From Rhodococcus jostii RHA1 (GTDB taxonomy: Bacteria; Actinomycetota; Actinomycetes; Mycobacteriales; Mycobacteriaceae), in NCBI RefSeq assembly GCF_000014565.1, contig NC_008271.1, positions 248,001 to 312,000 of the forward strand: 64,000 nt of DNA, read 5' to 3'. The notes under the pieces are model-generated. The model made no database searches. It had not been told where the DNA came from and was given only the letters and a program-made list of their open reading frames with translations. A program made the position numbers and the translations under genes. Position 1 is the stretch's first letter, and every line of letters starts with the position of its first letter. This document shows, in pieces, positions 4,884 through 13,733 of this stretch.

Positions 4884-4971
4884 AGCCCGCTCGCCACGAG
4901 AATGACTGCCGGGGTGGTCGATAGACACGAACCACACGACGGGCGCGGTGCGTTGCACACTCGCGCCGTAG

Positions 4972-5007
4972 CGATGCTAGCTACCCTAGCGGAGTTAGCT
5001 AGCATCG
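4972..5007. promoter_or_regulatory. Perfect 12-bp inverted repeat with three CTAG (operator-like)
   Basis: Arms CGATGCTAGCTA (4972-4983) and TAGCTAGCATCG (4996-5007) are exact complements around a 12-bp spacer. The spacer holds a third CTAG, so CTAG starts fall at 4977, 4986 and 4999 (offsets 0, 9, 22). The same offsets occur at 11396-11421 and, mirrored, at 8828-8853. It lies about 90 bp upstream of the Lsr2 remnant. Confidence 0.6.
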
Positions 5008-6040
5008 CCGTGCAATCAGGTCGCGGTCGCGGAGATTCTCGGCGCACGGTTGCTGACTATGCCCATTTCCGCGACGATCCGCTCGGGGCACGAGAATGGA
5101 CAACCGGCTCACCGCTCGGGCACTTACGTCACCGTGATGAAATTGCGTCCTGCTCTCCCCCGCCACCAGAGCGCACGAGATGGGTTCCTCAACCGTTCAG
5201 CAACTCAACGAAGCGTCGACACGCGCACTGATACGCCCGGCGCACGGTCGAACCACCTGAGCGGCCGCAATGGCGTCTGCCGACACCGTACTCGACTTCG
5301 TGGCGCGATCGACCGCAGCCACCCCGCCCCCATCGTCAAGCCCTGCGACGGGAGTAAAGACGAAGTGGGCGAACCGGCGATCGGGAAGGCCGGTACGGGC
5401 TGTCCGCACTCCGCACGCCATCCAGGCTCTCGACAGGTGACCTGAGTGTGCCGCGCCGACGGCGCTGACGGACGAGACGGCTTTGGCCCAAGCGTCGAGG
5501 TGAAACGCGACCAGGGTCCGGCCATCGACTGGGATCCGGGGCAACGGGGTCGTCGCCGACACCCGGCGCGAGGGCACCAACGGTTCGCACTGGATCTCGC
5601 CACCGGATCTACTTGCCCGCTTCGGGATCGAGTGACGGGATGTGCCCCTCACCTTTCTCGAGTGAACTGGATGAGTCATCCGCGTCCGGCATGCAACGTG
5701 ACGTCCGCCCAGCTGCAATCCGCAGATGCTCGTCGACGTTGCAATGGTGTTGTGTCTGCTTCGCGGTCCACACGACCGATTGTTCGTTGCATCCGAATCG
5801 GGCGTTGCGTTGCGTTGCGTTTCACACCTCGTGCCGTCGGCGTTGCGTTTCCGCACCCCGGCGTTGCATTGCCACCCTTCTGGTTGGTCTGCAACGTCTG
5901 TCTGCGTTGCGGTCAGAGTCGCTGAGTGTTGCGGAGATTCGGGGGATTCTTGTGGGGCGAGATTCGTTCTATTTGGTCGGGTGGTCTTCCCGGTCAAGAC
6001 GCGGAGTACGAACTGGCCGTCGCCGCCTTCCCTCGGGTGA
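5008..6040. other. About 1 kb without a convincing gene
   Basis: Open frames exist on both strands, the longest minus 5197-6087, but their compositions look like translated noise: Arg/Ser/Thr-rich, no domain, poor third-position GC. Part of a decayed gene may lie at 5200-5600. From 5690 to 5940 the pentamer GTTGC/GCAAC is dense, including three overlapping copies at 5804-5818. The same pentamer is dense in the neighbouring DUF2637 gene. Confidence 0.5.
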
Positions 6041-7387
6041 TCAGGGTGCCCCGACCAATGTGTACTGCGGATCGAGCGTTGCCGCATTGCGTCCGTCCGC
6101 CGCGTCCTCGAGTTCCGGCAACGGGGGCGTCCGGAACCCGGCGTCGACGGCGCGTTGCGCCACCTTGTCGAACCGGCGCATTGCGGTGCTGGCTGCCTTG
6201 GCCCGCGTGAGCGTGGCGATCTCCGCGTAGCTGTGCTGTTCGATGATTCGCAGTCGGGCCGTCTCCTTCACTACAGGCTCGAAGTCGGCGCACGTGTCGA
6301 TGAAGTCGAGGAGGTTCTCGATGGTCTGCGCCTCGTCCGGCAACACGAAGGGCTCTTGCGAGTCCTCCAGCGCATTGCGTGCAACGCGCTCCTCGGTGAG
6401 GGTTGCAACGTCGGTGACGTCATCTGGGTTCGCTTCGGTCGGCTGTACGGCATCTGCAACGTCAGTGGCATCCTCGGGTCCGGCCGCGGCGGCCTCACGG
6501 CTGTCGTCGAGTGTCGAGGAGCCGTCTGCTGTTGCGGTGTCGGCGACCTGCGGATCGGGATGAGCGAAGCGCTGCACAACGTCGGGGGCCGATGCAACAG
6601 GCTGCGCAATGCGCGGCGCAACGTCGGAGTCCGATGCAACGCCGGGGTCCGGCGCAACGTTAGGGACGTGTGCAACGTGGGAGTCCGGCGCAACGCTCGG
6701 GACGTGTGCAACGTGGGAGTCCGACGCAACGTTGGGGACCTGCGCAACGCTCGGAGCAACGAGACCCGCAATTTCGCCGCTGTTGCGTTCGGATGCCGGC
6801 ATCGACTCCGCCACCGCCGTCCGGTAGTCGGTGATGTCCTCGTCTCGCTGTTCGCGGTCGCGGGTGTTTCGAACGACCGCTATGTATTCGGTGTGGGCGG
6901 TGCCGATGGCTTTGATGAGGATTCCGACACCGTGAGTGAAAGCCAAGACCAAGAGTGGCGGGATGACTGCAATGAGCGATGCGCCGGTCGGAGTTAATGG
7001 GGTGTATCCCAGTTCGATGCCCGCCGCAACACTCCGCGCAGCGGCTTCCCCGGCGCGGTAGGCGTGGTAGGCGTTGCCGAAGACGCTGATGAAGACGACG
7101 ACCACTGCGAGCCAGAGAAAGAAATGCTTCCCCGTTGCGCTGCCGTTGATCTTGCTCAGCGCAACGATGGCAATCGTTGCGCCGAGGATTGCGCCGTCGA
7201 CGATGGCGGGGAAGATCCAGGTGAGGTAGTGCGGGATGCCGGCCTGCAATGCGAGGTCGCGTTGCACGGCGAACGACAGCACAAATGCTCCGGTGGTGAT
7301 GCCGACCGCAATGGCGATCGCAACGATTAGGGCGGCAATCAGGGCGCGGAGCTGGATTCGTGCTGCTCGGATACTAAGGTCGTTCAT
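6041..7387 (-). CDS. DUF2637 membrane protein with hexapeptide repeats
   Basis: 448 residues from ATG 7387, preceded by GGAAGGAAA. The first 170 residues hold about four hydrophobic helices, with TGAFVLSFAVQRDLALQAG and an Ala/Val-rich third helix, typical of the actinobacterial DUF2637 family found on plasmids and in Spd (spread) loci. The middle is a Pro/Val/Asp/Ser-rich linker with at least seven hexapeptides starting Val-Ala, encoded by 18-bp tandem repeats. The C-terminal 90 residues contain a sigma-region-4-like helix-turn-helix (ARLRIIEQHSYAEIATLTRA). A membrane-anchored DNA-binding role, perhaps in plasmid maintenance or transfer, is inferred. It lies downstream of parA-parB behind a hairpin. 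Confidence 0.7.
   Translation of the reverse strand: MNDLSIRAARIQLRALIAALIVAIAIAVGITTGAFVLSFAVQRDLALQAGIPHYLTWIFPAIVDGAILGATIAIVALSKINGSATGKHFFLWLAVVVVFISVFGNAYHAYRAGEAAARSVAAGIELGYTPLTPTGASLIAVIPPLLVLAFTHGVGILIKAIGTAHTEYIAVVRNTRDREQRDEDITDYRTAVAESMPASERNSGEIAGLVAPSVAQVPNVASDSHVAHVPSVAPDSHVAHVPNVAPDPGVASDSDVAPRIAQPVASAPDVVQRFAHPDPQVADTATADGSSTLDDSREAAAAGPEDATDVADAVQPTEANPDDVTDVATLTEERVARNALEDSQEPFVLPDEAQTIENLLDFIDTCADFEPVVKETARLRIIEQHSYAEIATLTRAKAASTAMRRFDKVAQRAVDAGFRTPPLPELEDAADGRNAATLDPQYTLVGAP
6618..6761. repeat. 18-bp tandem repeats starting GCAACG
   Basis: GCAAC starts at 6618, 6636, 6654, 6672, 6690, 6708, 6726 and 6744, exactly 18 bp apart, with one more at 6756. Alternate units are more alike (GTGGGAGTCCG versus GGGACGTGT types), giving a 36-bp higher order. 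They encode Val-Ala-x4 hexapeptides of the DUF2637 protein on the minus strand. Confidence 0.9.
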
Positions 7388-7421
7388 GATCGGGGTTTCC
7401 TTCCACGGGGTCCCGGTCCAC

Positions 7422-7454
7422 GAGGCCCCCGCCGGTGCAATCGGCGGGGGCCTC
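7422..7454. terminator. Strong hairpin between parB-like gene and DUF2637 gene
   Basis: A perfect inverted repeat with 13-bp arms (GAGGCCCCCGCCG / CGGCGGGGGCCTC) and a 7-nt loop. It has no clear T-run. It sits about 90 bp after the parB-like stop and 35 bp before the DUF2637 start, so it probably ends the parA-parB transcript. Confidence 0.7.
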
Positions 7455-7513
7455 CTTATGTCGGCTCGGCAAGATGCGTTGCGGTGGGCATATCTCGAAC
7501 CACGATCGCTCAC

Positions 7514-7551
7514 CTAGCCCTGCTAGCTAGTGTCGCAATTAGTGCTAGCAG
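7514..7551. promoter_or_regulatory. CTAG-rich inverted repeat downstream of the parB-like gene
   Basis: CTAG starts at 7514, 7523, 7527 and 7545. CTGCTAGC (7520-7527) and GCTAGCAG (7544-7551) are perfect inverted arms with a 16-bp spacer. The 9- and 22-bp separations match the other operator-like sites. It overlaps the 3' end of the parB-like gene and lies upstream of the DUF2637 gene. Confidence 0.5.
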
Positions 7552-7916
7552 CCGTTTTTGGTTAGGTATTCGATGAGCGCGGCGTCGGTGACTGACGAGA
7601 TGGTGATGCTGCGATCCCCGGTCTCGTAGCGCAGCTTGTCCACACCGCGCGTTAGGCGGGCCTTTGTCGAGGGCCGCAGTCGTACGTTGTGTTGTTCGCT
7701 GAGCTTCTCGACCGGCGATGCCGCCTCGGGTGCAGGGGACAAGACCGGTGTGACGGGCACGTCGGCGACAGACCTGATGGTCGATTCGGTCGGAAGTTGC
7801 GTCGGCTGCTCGTCGACGGCGGCCGGGGTGGGGTCTTTGACGACCCGGGGGCGCTCAGGAAGATCTGCGGCAGGGTGCGCCGGCCTGCGGATAGCGGGTT
7901 CACGTTGGACGCTCAT
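7545..7916 (-). CDS. RHH centromere-binding protein (ParB-like)
   Basis: 123 residues from ATG 7916, overlapping the parA TGA (ATGA). Residues 1-70 are Pro/Ala-rich and flexible. Residues 75-120 (NVRLRPSTKARLTRGV, then ITISSVTDAALIEYLTKNG) fit a ribbon-helix-helix domain. Position directly after parA identifies it as the partner of a type Ib-style partition ATPase. Such RHH proteins bind arrays of short repeats upstream of parA and repress the operon. The 9-bp-periodic DNA at 8820-9455 is the obvious candidate target. Confidence 0.75.
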   Translation of the reverse strand: MSVQREPAIRRPAHPAADLPERPRVVKDPTPAAVDEQPTQLPTESTIRSVADVPVTPVLSPAPEAASPVEKLSEQHNVRLRPSTKARLTRGVDKLRYETGDRSITISSVTDAALIEYLTKNGC

Positions 7917-8695
7917 ACGGTCGCTCCTGCGGTCTTGATGGGTAGTTCGTTGAGAAGGTCGGTGTAGGCGAGCTGCAATGACAGCGATTTTCCGCCGGTG
8001 AATTTGTGGATCGGGGTGCGCGCGCTGTGTGCGTCCTGCCGGGTGGCGTATTCCGGGATGGTGGTGCGCGCGACGAGGTCGCCGTAGACCTCGCGCAGTT
8101 CGCTCTCCCGGAATCGGTGTTCGCCTGTCCCCCGCTGTCGGCTGAGGACGATCTTGTCGATAGCCAGGTTCGGGTTGGGGCGTCGCTGGACATTCTCGAC
8201 GGTTTCGAAGAGCTTGGTGACGCCTTGAACGCTGTCGATGGTGGGCTCGGTTACTGCGATGACCCCGTCCACTGCACAGAAGACGGCGAAGAGGAGTTTG
8301 CCGAGCGACGGTGGGCAGTCGAAGAGGACGGCGTCGTAGGCGGAAAGGTCGAGGCCTTCGAAGGCGATGTCGAGGCGGAAGATGAGATCGTTGGCCCCAT
8401 CCGATTCGATGTTCGCGAGCGTCTGGTCGGCCGGGATCAGATCGACGCCGTCCCATGGGGTGGCAATGACGGCGTCGATCGCCGTGCCCGATTCGGTTCG
8501 GCTCATCAGGTCGTAGGTTGTCAGCATCTCGTCGGTGATGGTGACGCCTACGCCGTTGGTGGCGTTGCCCTGGGGGTCGACGTCGACAATGAGGACGTGT
8601 CCGCCGGCGTTGCTTATTGCGCTCGCGAGACCGAGGGTCGTGGCGGTCTTGCCCACTCCCCCCTTCTGATTGCAGATCGCGCATTTGCGTGTCAT
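7913..8695 (-). CDS. parA: ParA partition ATPase
   Basis: 260 residues from ATG 8695. An upstream ATG at 8767 adds residues unlike the family. The deviant Walker A motif KGGVGKTATT is at residues 11-20. DVDPQGNATN is the A' motif and VLFDCPPSLG the Walker B region. It moves plasmid copies apart by ATP-dependent cycling on nucleoid DNA with its RHH partner, encoded with a 4-nt overlap. It lacks an N-terminal helix-turn-helix, as in small type Ib ParA proteins, so repression of the operon probably falls to the RHH protein. Confidence 0.9.
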   Translation of the reverse strand: MTRKCAICNQKGGVGKTATTLGLASAISNAGGHVLIVDVDPQGNATNGVGVTITDEMLTTYDLMSRTESGTAIDAVIATPWDGVDLIPADQTLANIESDGANDLIFRLDIAFEGLDLSAYDAVLFDCPPSLGKLLFAVFCAVDGVIAVTEPTIDSVQGVTKLFETVENVQRRPNPNLAIDKIVLSRQRGTGEHRFRESELREVYGDLVARTTIPEYATRQDAHSARTPIHKFTGGKSLSLQLAYTDLLNELPIKTAGATV

Positions 8696-8819
8696 GACTT
8701 GGTTTCCGTTCCGTCGAGGCCAGGAGACTTCCAGATGCGCGCGATGAGCGTTAGTGCAACTCCGCACGCTCGCGTAGGGAGCATAGCCAGGCTTGGCCGC
8801 TGAACTAGCCCGACACGCC

Positions 8820-9455
8820 GAGCAACGCTAGCGCCCTTTGCTAGGTGAGCTAGCGTGAATAGCTTAACTAGTGTCTCTAGTTTGGCTTTCGTAGCAATCG
8901 ACGCTTACGACGCAAACATAGCTAGGACCTCTATGGTTGCGCACCTATCTACAGTCTCTGTAATAGATTTGCTCACAACAGTTACTGCACTAGTTTTCAT
9001 AGCGACGTTAGATACGACTGCGCTTATAGCGATAACAGCAACGATCGATAGCCAAACTTCCCTCGCAAGCATCGCGCTCATAGCTCTGTTCGCACTCATA
9101 GCTCTGCAAGCACCCCTACAACCCCTAGACTGCATAGCCAGCCTATTAAGGCTAGAACGCCTAGAAAGGCTCGAAAGGCAAGTCGGACTAGACATGCAAG
9201 CGACCATAGAAAGCGGCGCAACTATAGCGCTCATACGGCGTCTAGCTCCGGTAGATATCGTTGCTGATGTCTCTCTGATAGCGACGATTGCGGGAATTGC
9301 TGCGCTACAACGAGTAGCTGCGATCGTCGCCATAGCAGAACTATCCGCGCTATGAAGACTAGAGCCGATAGCCCAGTTAGACCGGATATTTGCGCTTTCC
9401 CTCCCTGCTACCAAAGCGGATCCCGTCAATGCTATCGGAGCTAGCGTTGATATTT
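8820..9455. repeat. 9-bp-periodic (A/C)TAG repeat array upstream of parA (candidate centromere)
   Basis: TAG trinucleotides recur almost only at multiples of 9 bp. From 8892 to 9378 they fall at 8892, 8919, 8964, 8991, 9000, 9009, 9027, 9081, 9099, 9126, 9135, 9153, 9162, 9189, 9207, 9225, 9243, 9252, 9279, 9315, 9333, 9360, 9369 and 9378, all in one phase; only 8923 and 9049 are off phase. A second phase holds 8842, 8851, 8860, 8869 and 8878. The unit is a degenerate nonamer such as ATAGCGACG, ATAGCTCTG or CTAGACTGC. About 60 units cover 8841-9394, and CTAG/CTAT recur 9 bp apart again at 9432-9441. It is AT-richer than its surroundings. Open frames here on both strands follow from the 9-bp period. 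Confidence 0.85.
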
Positions 9456-9647
9456 CAGCAGGTCAGGAAGTCGTCGGCCGCAACTATGCCACGAGGCACC
9501 GTCACGCAAAACGCGCCCCTCCACCAGATCGCCTCCGCCTAGGCACGGGCGGAACCCGGGGAAACAGAACAGGCCGGCTTCGAGTCTTCACAGCTCAACA
9601 TGCCGCCCGAGCGGACCTCGCCCCGGATCCACCAAGTACGATTCTCG
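9456..9647. other. Spacer between the two repeat blocks
   Basis: No gene, hairpin or periodic signal was seen, apart from a single CTAG at 9540-9543. Composition returns to high GC. Confidence 0.4.
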
Positions 9648-9878
9648 AGCTAGCGGCGCTCCGCTAGCTAGGCTAGCGGTCCAATCCCTGTGAGCGAGAA
9701 CTGCTATTTCCGCCAGCGGCGTAAGTGCAACGGTCGCTATACCGCTAGCTACTATGTCGCTCCTAGCAGCCGTCGGCACGCGAGCAATCAACGCTCGCAT
9801 AGCTAATCGAGATCTCTGCAATAGCGTTACATTGCTATCTAGCGTCTCTAGCAACGCTACGTAGCATGACTAGCATCG
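9648..9878. repeat. Second CTAG/ATAG block
   Basis: A perfect inverted repeat AGCTAGCGG / CCGCTAGCT (9648-9656, 9661-9669) is followed by CTAG or ATAG at 9673, 9745, 9763, 9799, 9821, 9839, 9848 and 9870. Separations of 18, 36, 18, 9 and 22 bp repeat the 9-bp rule with the occasional 13-bp step. It is non-coding, about 1 kb upstream of parA and just past the 3' end of the hypothetical gene at 10006. Confidence 0.65.
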
Positions 9879-10005
9879 CACCGTGGGTTACATCGCTTTC
9901 GCAACGAGCACACATTCGCTGGACAGCGCGTCGCAGGGAAGCATTCCCCCGGGTTAAGAAGGAAGCGGCAGGACGTGTGAATCAGGTGTGCACAGAGCCG
10001 ACGGT

Positions 10006-11241
10006 TCAGGGCAGTAATCGGTGGGCGAGTTGTTCGGCGTTGAGTTGCCGAATGCCGTCGTCGACGGCTTGGCGGTCGGTGAGGTCGACGCCTCGCTCGG
10101 TGAGCGCTGCGGCCACCTGTTTGGCCGGGCCCCAGGTAGTTTCATCGTCGAATGCGTCATGGAACTCGGGTAGGAAGGTGTCCACAGCATCAACGACGCG
10201 GCTGATCCATTGGCGGTCGATCTCCTGTTGGGTCAGCGCGAAGGTCAGCCATCGGCGCAACACGAAGGGCAGTGCGTTGCGTTGGTCGGCGTCGAGGACT
10301 GCTTTGCGGGGAAGCCAATCGGTGAGCAGCAGCATCACCTCGCCCGGGCTCCAGCACAGCGGTCCGGCGCCTATGTAGCCGTCGCCGTAGTCCAGGAACA
10401 GCTCGGCCAGCGACCGGCTCACCTCGTCGTCGCTTCCGATGTCGTTGAGGAAGTCCTCGACCAGTTGGCGGCGCCTTTGCTCGGGAAGTCCGACGTGTTC
10501 GGGCCATTCTGGCAGGTAGTTCCGGCAGCGGGACCATGCCAGCGCCCGGTGATCGCAAAAGTCCTCGTCGGCGGTGCGGGGCCAGGTCATGTCGGTGGTG
10601 CGTAACGCGTGCGCGAGATCGGCGAGCACCTCGGCGACCGGGACCGACTGGAGCGGCATCGGTGCCTCATCGGGCTCGCGCAGCTGGTCCCACGTGGTGG
10701 CTGCGCCAGCATTCAGGAGAGCAAGCTTGTCGATCATCAGCCCGCCGACCTGGTAGATATTCGCCATCAATGTGTGTGGGTGCGGTCCGTCGTAGTCAAT
10801 GAACAGGACCCGTTCGCTCTCGTACACGTCGACCGCGCGCCACGCTGCGGTCGGAGTCCACGCCGCGACGGTGTGCCAGGCCGGCAGTGGTTGGGTTTCG
10901 GCCAAGATGCCGAGGGTGTCGGTCAGCATCGAAAGGTCGGCCGCAGGTGCGACCCGCGCGAGCGCGTCGACCGCGGCCAGCGAGTGCGGGGACGGTGTGG
11001 AGCATGCTCGGCCGGTGACCTGCATGCACAGTAGGTGCTCGGGTTCGTGTTCGGTCAGTGCCGCCGTCGACCACGCCTCGCCGAGCCACCCGCTGGCCCA
11101 GGTCTCGGCGGTGAGCACATCGTCGATTTCGAGGAGTTGCCGGGCGTCGAGCAGCAGAAGATCGGCTGGGTGAAGTTGCCGAGGAGCACGGCGAACGGGT
11201 CGGCTTTTGCCGCCCTTGCGGCGGCCACGGCTCTTGGGCAT
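10006..11241 (-). CDS. Conserved hypothetical protein, 411 residues
   Basis: It starts with a basic tail (MPKSRGRRKGGKSR) and continues as a mostly helical, acidic, Trp-rich protein with no recognised motif. Codon use and length support a real gene. Similar proteins with this N-terminus appear in actinobacteria, but no function is known to me. A CTAG triplet operator (11391-11430) lies about 150 bp upstream of its start and the second CTAG block lies beyond its stop, so its expression may be tied to the partition system. No signal peptide or membrane segment is present. Confidence 0.6.
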   Translation of the reverse strand: MPKSRGRRKGGKSRPVRRAPRQLHPADLLLLDARQLLEIDDVLTAETWASGWLGEAWSTAALTEHEPEHLLCMQVTGRACSTPSPHSLAAVDALARVAPAADLSMLTDTLGILAETQPLPAWHTVAAWTPTAAWRAVDVYESERVLFIDYDGPHPHTLMANIYQVGGLMIDKLALLNAGAATTWDQLREPDEAPMPLQSVPVAEVLADLAHALRTTDMTWPRTADEDFCDHRALAWSRCRNYLPEWPEHVGLPEQRRRQLVEDFLNDIGSDDEVSRSLAELFLDYGDGYIGAGPLCWSPGEVMLLLTDWLPRKAVLDADQRNALPFVLRRWLTFALTQQEIDRQWISRVVDAVDTFLPEFHDAFDDETTWGPAKQVAAALTERGVDLTDRQAVDDGIRQLNAEQLAHRLLP

Positions 11242-11651
11242 ATCCGCAGTCCACCACAGACATCGACCAAGGCGCCATCACGACGCGCCGTCCGGTGAGA
11301 TTCCGGCGACGTCCATATCTGCCGTCACGTGACAGAAACCGTAGGTAGCCCCGGGTATCAACGCTCGCCAAACTATTCGCAATAGCCAGAACTACCTAGC
11401 GTTGCTAGCTCGCATTGCTAGCAACGGTAGGTCAGCGTTATTTGGCTGCCTAATAGCCGGGAAGGACGCGGTGCCCGTTGAGCGCGACCGCTGGTGTCGT
11501 GCGCCGTTGAAAAGTCTTCATCCACGAAGATGGGGTGAACCGTCTGCTGTGTGAGAGGGTCGACTTCGATTACCAGGCGTACGAGGCGTTCTCGGAACTG
11601 CTGGTGGGCAGGTGGTGCGGTGTCAGAGTTGCGTCTGCCCACGCTCAGGCA
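11242..11651. other. Intergenic with operator-like site
   Basis: Short open frames on both strands lack support. The only clear structure is the CTAG inverted repeat at 11391-11430. The region probably carries the promoter of the 411-residue gene and the 3' flank of the beta-helix gene. Confidence 0.4.
11391..11430. promoter_or_regulatory. CTAG triplet operator-like site
   Basis: CTAG starts at 11396, 11405 and 11418 (offsets 0, 9, 22), the same geometry as 4977/4986/4999. CGTTGCTAGC (11400-11409) and GCTAGCAACG (11417-11426) form a perfect 10-bp inverted repeat with a 7-bp spacer. It lies upstream of the 411-residue gene. Confidence 0.6.
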
Positions 11652-12236
11652 TCATGTGTCCCTCATAGTGACGTTCTTGCGAGCTGGACCGCGAACCACG
11701 ACTGCGGTTTCCACGACTGCGCGTGCCTCATCGGAAAGGGCGAGAATCGCGTGATCTCTAGCCTGGACCGTGGCCTCGTCGTAGGCGTGGACAACGACGT
11801 TGTCGTCGGCCCACACAACCGAGTGGTCACACGCTCTGATGAATGCGTGATTATGAGCTACAACGCGGCACTGGTCGAAGGCAGTAACCGTCGCGTGTGT
11901 GTAGGCCCAGACATGAACTTGCCCGGTGACTTCCACGGTCGTCGCGTCAGTGGCGACGATGTGCGCGGTCGCGGGTAGTGGTGAGTCGAGATGAATCCGT
12001 GCCTGCGATCCAGCGGTAAACCGCAAGGTCCACTCGTCGCCGGCCGATGCGAAGGTTTTGTCGTCGAGTTCGATTAGCTGACCTGCAGTGTCAACCACGA
12101 CTGTTTTGGCGCCGTTGCGGAGACGCTCGCGGATCGAGTCTGCGTTGCGGCTGATGCGGGGAGGCGCCTGGACTCGGCTGACATAGACCCGTGGGTGGCG
12201 TTGGGTCGATCGGGACACGGTGTTCTTCTTACCCAC
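11652..12236 (-). CDS. Repeat protein with predicted beta-helix
   Basis: 194 residues. After a basic N-terminus, residues 85-175 show a short periodic pattern: HVWAYTHATVTAFDQ, CRVVAHNHAFIRACDH, SVVWADDNVVVHAYDE, ATVQARDHAILALSDE. Short hydrophobic strands alternate with Ala-Tyr/His-Asp turns, as in beta-helical proteins built from short repeats. Similar repeat proteins occur in actinobacterial phages and mobile elements without known function. The start at 12236 is plausible, with a basic MGKKN leader. It may act as a scaffold or DNA mimic; that is speculation. Confidence 0.6.
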   Translation of the reverse strand: MGKKNTVSRSTQRHPRVYVSRVQAPPRISRNADSIRERLRNGAKTVVVDTAGQLIELDDKTFASAGDEWTLRFTAGSQARIHLDSPLPATAHIVATDATTVEVTGQVHVWAYTHATVTAFDQCRVVAHNHAFIRACDHSVVWADDNVVVHAYDEATVQARDHAILALSDEARAVVETAVVVRGPARKNVTMRDT

Positions 12237-12398
12237 GAGCGCACTCCGTTCTGTGCGAGTCGGCCACGATGATTGCCGCAGTATATGGCCGAGACTCGGT
12301 GGGGAGTGGTACCTCGCTCGGCGCGGTGGTGATCGTCCGCGGCCGGTCCGACCAGCGTTGCCCTATGTGCATGGTGCGCCGAGGATCGATGGGCATGG

Positions 12399-13733
12399 TT
12401 ACGCCGCCTGCCTTTGGGGTGCCAGGGTGGCGCGGATCTGTTCCATGAGCGCTTTTCGGTGCTCAGGCGACGCCGCTGCGCGACGGGATCGTTCGCGTTC
12501 GGCGTCACGCTCAGCCCTGCGCTGTGCGCTGTGTGCAGCCTCTGCGGCGCGTTGCTCGCTGGGGGAGAGGCCCGACCAGTCGATTCTGGACAAACGCCAG
12601 GTCAGATATCCGATCGGCGAGCGAACAGTGTCTGGCCAGAGCTCACCTCGCGATACGGTGTCAGCGGTCAAAGCTTGGGCGATATCCCGTCCTGTCCAGC
12701 GCGTGGTGTCGATTCCTGCGCGATCGATGACGTCGCACACGGCGCCGATGTGGCCGCTGGGTGCGATGACTGGAGCTGCGGCGATCAGGGTGGAGGCGGC
12801 TCGTTGGAGATTTATCGGGCGCGGGTTCGTCTGATTCGAGGATGAGGGTTGGTTCTCGCGCGCGCACGCGCGTTTGGTGATTACTTCTCTACAAGAGATC
12901 CCCTTCGGGGAAAAACCACTCAAAGATAGGGGGTCACGGTCGCGGGCTTGGGGATTGGGATTCGATCCCGTCGGGGTGGTGGGGTGAGTGTGCTTTGCCG
13001 CGCGGTGTGTCCTGCAGTGGGAGCTGCCGCGCTTTTTTGCTTGTGGGGGAGCGGGGGTGGCTGCGACGAGGTCAGGTGGGGAGGATAGAGCCCATACGCT
13101 GGCAGCGCGGTGCTGACGTCCACCGTGGTGGACTTCTGCGGCTTGGAATTCACGCGTAGTCAGGGTACGGCCCCGTACCAGCTCGAAGCCGAGGTGTAGT
13201 GCTTTCAGCACGCGGCGACCCCGTTTGACCACCGATTCAGACACACCAGCGCGGGCGGCGAGATTCTGGACGGTGGCAGTAACGCGGCGCCCAGTTTTCG
13301 AGTCGGCTGACGACGCGTGCGCGCCAGCGATGGCGACCATACTTTCGACGCCGATCCTGTGTCGGGCGGCTGCGGCGCGGCCGGCGGCGGTCTTGGTGAT
13401 CGCGTACCGGACCTGTCGCATCCATCCGTCGCGACTTGTCCAGATCGGGATGCTTGCTTCTTGGCCGGGATTGACGGGCAGCGTCCAAGATTTGCCGCGC
13501 TGATCGGTATCCGTATTGAGCTGTCGCAGCTCGTCAATCCACGGCGTCTGAAGTGGTTGCGTCGCCGGTTGCGTGGTTTGGGGAACCGGCGAGTGTGATT
13601 TATCCCACGACACGCCGAGATCGGAATGTTCAACCGTGGAAAGGGCATCAGGGTATGCGTTACCCTGGGACGTACCTAGTAGCACAGGTAATCCCTTCGG
13701 GGAATGCAGTACCGAGTCGAAGAGGCTGCACAC
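12399..13733 (-). CDS. Putative plasmid replication initiator with helix-turn-helix
   Basis: 444 residues from GTG 13733 with GAGGTG upstream. Residues 130-180 (VQNLAARAGVSESVVKRGRRVLKAL) form a helix-turn-helix. Residues 330-385 contain RWTGRDIAQALTADT and RSPIGYLTWRLSRIDW, a segment I associate with replication (Rep) proteins of Rhodococcus and Gordonia plasmids. The C-terminus is rich in Arg/Glu/Ala and probably coiled coil. It lies near parA-parB, as expected for a replicon core, and two hairpins precede it. The call rests on pattern memory, not on a search. Confidence 0.6.
   Translation of the reverse strand: MCSLFDSVLHSPKGLPVLLGTSQGNAYPDALSTVEHSDLGVSWDKSHSPVPQTTQPATQPLQTPWIDELRQLNTDTDQRGKSWTLPVNPGQEASIPIWTSRDGWMRQVRYAITKTAAGRAAAARHRIGVESMVAIAGAHASSADSKTGRRVTATVQNLAARAGVSESVVKRGRRVLKALHLGFELVRGRTLTTREFQAAEVHHGGRQHRAASVWALSSPPDLVAATPAPPQAKKRGSSHCRTHRAAKHTHPTTPTGSNPNPQARDRDPLSLSGFSPKGISCREVITKRACARENQPSSSNQTNPRPINLQRAASTLIAAAPVIAPSGHIGAVCDVIDRAGIDTTRWTGRDIAQALTADTVSRGELWPDTVRSPIGYLTWRLSRIDWSGLSPSEQRAAEAAHSAQRRAERDAERERSRRAAASPEHRKALMEQIRATLAPQRQAA

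Follow-up and report, generated by a model that had tools for sequence, protein, structure and literature searches.

Contiguous nonamer arrays before parA as a candidate centromere of Rhodococcus jostii plasmid pRHL3 and of related plasmids

The closest described counterparts of the locus presented here are partition systems with short repeated words. The omega protein of pSM19035 binds heptads that adjoin one another and may face either way, both at the par genes and at a number of other promoters, and full activation of the ATPase in that system needs four contiguous heptads (excerpts of PMC5016525 and PMC9499535); its sites hold 9, 7 and 10 heptads (excerpt of PMC5016525). The centromere of pCXC100 from Leifsonia xyli subsp. 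cynodontis is described in that same excerpt as made of direct repeats only (PMC5016525). A further point of comparison is the repressor Arc of phage P22, in which Q9, N11 and R13 contact the TAGA box (excerpt of PMC12645479).

On pRHL3 of R. jostii RHA1, an array of 9-bp units precedes parA, within a stretch of 64,000 nucleotides that was analysed as a whole (the window). As in pSM19035, contiguous short units stand at the par genes and before other genes and are accompanied by a small protein (RHH in omega, putatively so here); unlike the heptads of pSM19035, the units are of 9 bp, with about 6 to 100 per site across the loci that we compared. With pCXC100 the locus shares a type Ib ParA and a small ParB, which is RHH in pCXC100; it differs in that its ParB has no profile sequence match to that of pCXC100, and in its phase changes, arrays of up to about 700 bp and two recognition types. 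The centromere repeats of pCXC100 are reportedly 9 bp long, and the nonamer itself may therefore not be new. The likeness to Arc consists of a strand triad Q-x-N-x-R and a word TAG(A/C); Arc itself is a phage repressor that acts on a 21-bp operator and is not a centromere protein. Among the ParA matches listed are relatives from Enterococcus plasmids, at 32-35% identity. One of these plasmids is presumably pAD1, whose partition repeats are said to be contiguous TAG-bearing units, as here, but of 8 bp (TAGTARRR) rather than 9. The word TAGTARRR was not found among the best-matching open-licence literature, and a look through open-licence titles found no report of these Rhodococcus nonamer arrays.

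The phasing of TAG in the window is exactly as the first-pass annotation had counted it: of the 26 occurrences in 8892-9378, 24 lie in one phase (0 mod 9) and two, at 8923 and 9049, are off phase, and the second phase that it placed at 8842-8878 is present (8842, 8851, 8860, 8869 and 8878). Over 8820-9455, one phase is common to 25 of 33 TAG, against a maximum of 8 in 500 dinucleotide shuffles. The autocorrelation proposed as a check gives the expected 9-bp peak, with identity at lags 9, 18, 27, 36 and 45 exceeding dinucleotide shuffles by 8.3-11.5 SD in the same interval; a heptad period can be rejected for this array (lag 7 at -1.3 SD). In sliding 400-bp windows, the array gives the strongest joint lag-9 and lag-18 signal of the whole 64 kb (z about 10 for each lag in its best windows, compared with a sum of about 9 for the best elsewhere). 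The unit, taken over 55 consecutive rows, is NNN-TAGC-NN, with core counts of T 45, A 36, G 42 and C 35 of 55; the core columns carry 0.63-1.08 bits and the nearly free flanks 0.08-0.25 bits. In the direction of parA, the core reads GCTA. The unit, earlier rendered as (A/C)TAGCxxxx, is better described as a degenerate 9-bp word around a 4-bp core (TAGC/GCTA), which probably occurs in both orientations; offsets of 9n+4/5, in the window as in relatives, would fit units that face the opposite way. CTAG is rare on pRHL3, as had been pointed out (188 observed, 332 expected by a Markov estimate and 1,077 from base composition), and 29 of the 188 fall in the 2.4 kb around parAB, where any other 2.4 kb has at most 7.

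The extent of the array was determined by scanning all 332 kb of pRHL3 with a unit model trained on 33 loci of the V-type (defined below), the window included. Seven runs score at least 20, where one shuffled version of the plasmid reaches no more than 17.8; six of them lie within 6.5 kb of parAB and the seventh (C4:45369) is weak, at 21.4. The main array, which is the centromere candidate, occupies 8735-9417 on the minus strand and scores 281; its 683 bp correspond to the length of about 76 units, its core is GCTA when read towards parA, and 40 bp separate it from the parA start codon. A block of the second phase at 8838-8886 (minus strand) is offset by 4-5 bp from the main phase, and we infer that it runs in the opposite orientation; such offsets recur in relatives. 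Beyond the main array there are a short run at 9426-9459 (plus strand, score 26.4) and, further upstream, a second block at 9648-9859 (plus strand, score 71.4; lags 9, 18 and 27 at 3.2-3.7 SD). Another block, at 7498-7550 (minus strand, score 30.8), covers the parB stop codon and precedes a DUF2637 gene. Satellite clusters are found at 4969-5018 (minus strand, score 35.1, with four contiguous mismatch-free GCTA units at 4969-4999) and at 11356-11444 (plus strand, score 32.0, 115 bp upstream of the minus-strand ORF 10006-11241). The repeats reach well past the range first given, 8820-9455. Blocks precede two other genes as well, that for DUF2637 and the ORF 5' of parA, and to judge by their placement the suggested omega-like spread to several promoters is likely to apply here. 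A promoter scan of 7400-9900 returned no sigma-70 match and one terminator-like site, not above shuffle level. The DUF2637 ORF next to parB itself holds an 18/36-bp tandem repeat (window 6614-6756). Pattern matches with three mismatches were not used alone as evidence, the reversed control being far commoner than the pattern. On pRHL1 (C2), five short nonamer runs with scores of 22-32 (at 739072, 711342, 109471, 718378 and 557262) were seen in the 400 kb scanned out of 1,123 kb, in stretches picked to include pattern-search matches; on a plasmid that does not have this ParB, they may be either targets in trans or targets of another protein.

The parA gene (7913-8695, minus strand) encodes a 260-aa ATPase of the AAA_31/CbiA ParA family with a deviant Walker A motif, KGGVGKT. 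AAA_31 begins at residue 3 and there is no N-terminal DNA-binding domain; the size falls within the type Ib range of 192-308 aa (excerpt of PMC3235114). A ParA query has six matches in the RHA1 genome (9,702,737 bases in four contigs), of which only that of the window is on pRHL3 and the other five have at most 38% identity. The parB-like gene (7545-7916, minus strand, 123 aa) overlaps the end of parA by 4 bp, and parB is directly 3' of parA in relatives too; the ParB alignment matches once in the RHA1 genome, at the window's own gene. The protein has a conserved N-terminal motif (RxPAIRR-HPA-LPERP), a proline-rich linker and a C-terminal RHH-like domain (residues 66-123, 7548-7721, minus strand), which is modelled with a strand region at E74-QHNVRLR and helices at 82-99 and 106-120. 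In the register that appears most plausible, the recognition triad would be Q75-N77-R79. Among PDB structures, the C-domain model comes closest to pCXC100 ParB (3NO7), with a TM score of 0.56 over 43 columns, 26% identity and a weak E of 2.7. Neither Pfam nor NCBIfam gives an RHH match; Pfam has nothing above cut-off for the 123 aa (VP9, at E 0.03, is below it), Foldseek finds one match to the full-length model at E 8.2, and VIA-align finds none. PDB sequence matches of the protein or its alignments to '003-102 Heavy' (E 0.05-0.1) and 'Scone-E' (E 3) were set aside as chance. Assignment to the HTH-ParB class (type Ia, CTPase) was rejected, given 123 aa and no Pfam domain above cut-off. The first-pass annotation had named an RHH parB-like gene directly after parA; the small gene is there, and the sequence pattern, the two-helix model and the pCXC100 match point weakly to the RHH fold.

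For comparison we assembled 49 loci: the window, 18 plasmid loci hand-chosen for spread from 72 records with a ParB match, and 30 from genome contigs (all those found there). Near-copies are present among them (L033/L034 and L026/L027/L028). Detection models were trained for the V-type on the 55 units of the window only and for the T-type on L017 only, and each locus was compared with 100 shuffles of its own. An array before parA beats all 100 shuffles in 44 of the 47 loci with upstream DNA (L042 and L045 have none and are outside this count); without the training loci, the figures are 33 of 36 for the V-type, four of the positives (L005, L006, L009 and L023) being close kin of the window, and 9 of 9 for the T-type. 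No array above shuffles was found before parA in three of the 47, L007, L008 and L047. V-type loci with an array range from Rhodococcus to Mycobacterium, and in all 47 loci the 9-bp form of the window model scores higher than 8- and 10-bp forms. The arrays of Mycobacterium and Nocardia measure about 50-80 bp and those of Rhodococcus up to more than 600 bp; five T-type loci have over 600 bp. Of the 44 arrays detected, 39 stop no more than 63 bp short of parA. In 40 of 48 loci there is a further block that starts at, or no more than 40 bp from, the parB stop codon, with a score that 2 or fewer of 200 shuffles reach (L032 was left out because its sequence ends too soon); the eight in which no such block was found are seven Dietzia-type loci and L047. 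Array and parA remain together across several genera, whether the plasmid is circular or linear, and beside differing neighbours.

Some neighbouring observations concern individual plasmids. L007 (pUSK13_1) and L008 (pRZP2) have very similar ParA and ParB, no array before parA, and short nonamer clusters after parB and elsewhere on the plasmid; strain ZPP carries pRZP2 together with a second plasmid that has an array, which bears on incompatibility. In L008, the opposite strand has an annotated 'SUMF1/EgtB' gene (2497-2961) in the interval that separates parA from the upstream gene; 7 bp at its start are shared with the conserved 42-bp leader of parA, and the gene is probably a spurious call. 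In pDK1 (L097), 11906-13182 holds another gene of the ParA family and, after it, a hypothetical gene, at a distance of a few kb from parAB. No array of this strength was seen at six more remotely related ParA loci, taken from the best 60 of 1,356 records. The Pseudarthrobacter sp. LT1 plasmid (L103) has a weak 9/18-bp periodicity at 1886-2482, of 4.9-5.0 at lags 9 and 18; the units there are TATA-like and precede a different ParA, whose small ParB is also different, and this system is possibly nearer to pCXC100.

The repeated word changes together with the ParB strand. Two strand forms occur, (E/D/A)QHNVR (V-type) and (M/S/A/T)THNTR (T-type), the former with the word GCTA and the latter with YGCA. 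In 121 ParB-family sequences (that of the window and the 120 best of 403 matches), there are 66 QHNVR, 46 THNTR and one SHNTR; the other eight have the same two forms with PT for PS, and none of the 121 is mixed. In the 900 bp before parA, V-type loci have 2-17 CTAG and 1-9 TGCA, apart from L007 with no CTAG, while the ten T-type loci with upstream DNA have 0-2 CTAG and 16-50 TGCA. CTAG alone does not part the two forms because V-type L008, L019, L047 and L048 have only 2 each. The trained units are.AGCTA... (V-type, 33 loci) and YGCA.G (T-type, 10 loci): GC is kept, and the base that most often follows it is T (0.67) in the former and A (0.66) in the latter. That the two words are related is seen from cross-scoring: with the model from the window, each of the ten T-type arrays exceeds shuffles, as do some V-type arrays with the T-type model. 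In a midpoint-rooted ParA tree, the T form occupies one side of a branch (99/94) and the V form its other sides; one switch suffices, and strand and word may have changed in a single event.

The array is open over 166 codons at 8855-9355 (plus strand) and 174 at 8905-9429 (minus strand), and long open frames are found in the arrays of relatives as well, so that it could in principle encode a repeat protein, with TAG phased by stop avoidance. Third codon positions are no more variable than the others (invariant 88/144, 99/144 and 98/145), GC3 is 0.43 compared with 0.80 in parA, ATA or CTA makes up 25 of 167 codons, Pfam has no match and pDK1 has no annotated gene at its array; from codon position, GC3 and codon use, we reject the coding reading and give it practically no credence. 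A neutral remnant of tandem duplication, without function, is hardly more credible. Such DNA does duplicate, as seen from higher-order tandem blocks of 63, 36 and 399 bp, but place and period are kept in 44 of 47 loci, the word changes with the protein, and the cores are better conserved: in a comparison of five close relatives (82-95% identical), the four core columns show no variation in 163 of 212 cases, as against 154 of 265 for the remaining five columns (p 1.7e-5); the difference is strong over 9150-9383 and falls short of significance over 8889-9150. In the aligned stretch, gaps within the array are multiples of nine (18 bp in two relatives, 9 bp in one); other gaps, of 1-5 and 15 bp, are mostly outside the main array.

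Replication-origin iterons bound by a Rep protein would be an improbable identity for these repeats. The array does have a GC content of 50%, compared with 66% in the window, iteron regions are often poorer in GC, and a 411-aa ORF without assigned function lies upstream; against this, the array follows parA across genera, circular and linear plasmids and different neighbours, and its word follows the ParB strand type. It is unlikely, though less so, that the array is mainly an operator at which ParB represses parAB and its neighbours, with the true centromere elsewhere. The promoter-sized arrays of Mycobacterium and Nocardia, the ending of most arrays close to parA, and L007 and L008, which retain near the genes only the block after parB, speak for it. 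The lengths on pRHL3 and in the five long T-type loci are far beyond what an operator needs, and pRHL3 has no other cluster of such size. A centromere of nonamers in place of the omega heptads, as the first-pass annotation had proposed, is supported by the comparison of loci, and three features of a type Ib system are present: a ParA-type Walker ATPase of 260 aa, a small protein gene directly after parA, and repeats upstream of the operon. On these sequence grounds, the array, with its contiguous nonamers, very probably serves a type Ib ParA/RHH system both as parS centromere and as operator.

In the centromere system that we propose, dimers of the protein from 7545-7916 would sit side by side, one per nonamer, each reading the TAG/GCTA core with a two-stranded ribbon through its Q75-N77-R79 triad. 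The filled array before parA would be the partition complex, whose conserved N-terminal ParB tails would stimulate the ParA ATPase, and ParA would move the complex over the nucleoid. ParB on the units near the start of parA and 3' of parB would act as a repressor of parAB and of the DUF2637 gene, and the two satellites would extend this control. Binding, stoichiometry, repression and segregation by ParB are all predictions of this model. At 10.5 bp per turn, a 9-bp step places successive dimers about -51 degrees apart, and seven dimers take up 63 bp, or six DNA turns. Tandem blocks of 63 bp are in fact present in two plasmids that are sister rows in the tree (9.6 and 13 copies), which suggests a match to such a seven-dimer turn; blocks of 36 bp or 399 bp occur in other loci. 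Tentatively, and with slightly more doubt than confidence, we suggest that Mycobacteriales plasmids hold a separate RHH centromere class of contiguous nonamers, in which seven dimers make one superhelical turn (63 bp), the change at positions 75/78 from Q/V to T/T re-addressed an array of about 80 units from GCTA to YGCA, and satellites make ParB a regulator of maintenance genes.

A centromere dense in CTAG would also explain a transposon hot spot. TnRErm46 of R. equi targets NCTAGN, and 2 of 3 copies on pRErm46 and 4 of 7 on pVAPA are in the replication/partition module, where the TAG is the parB stop (excerpt of PMC6794481). In the window, the parB stop codon TAG likewise sits within a CTAG unit (7541-7550), and P0029 and P0099, two ParBs of R. 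equi (hoagii), belong to the V-type. In an excerpt of the WAY2 genome paper, parB is placed only on the chromosome and pRWAY01, which is taken to suggest dependence on other replicons, and RHA1 is described as similar (PMC7276702). We would argue that pRWAY02, which is L009 among the loci examined, and pRHL3 have a ParB of another kind. The V and T forms would offer a natural pair of recognition states for work on RHH-DNA specificity and plasmid incompatibility, and plasmids thought to have neither centromere nor ParB would gain a candidate for each.
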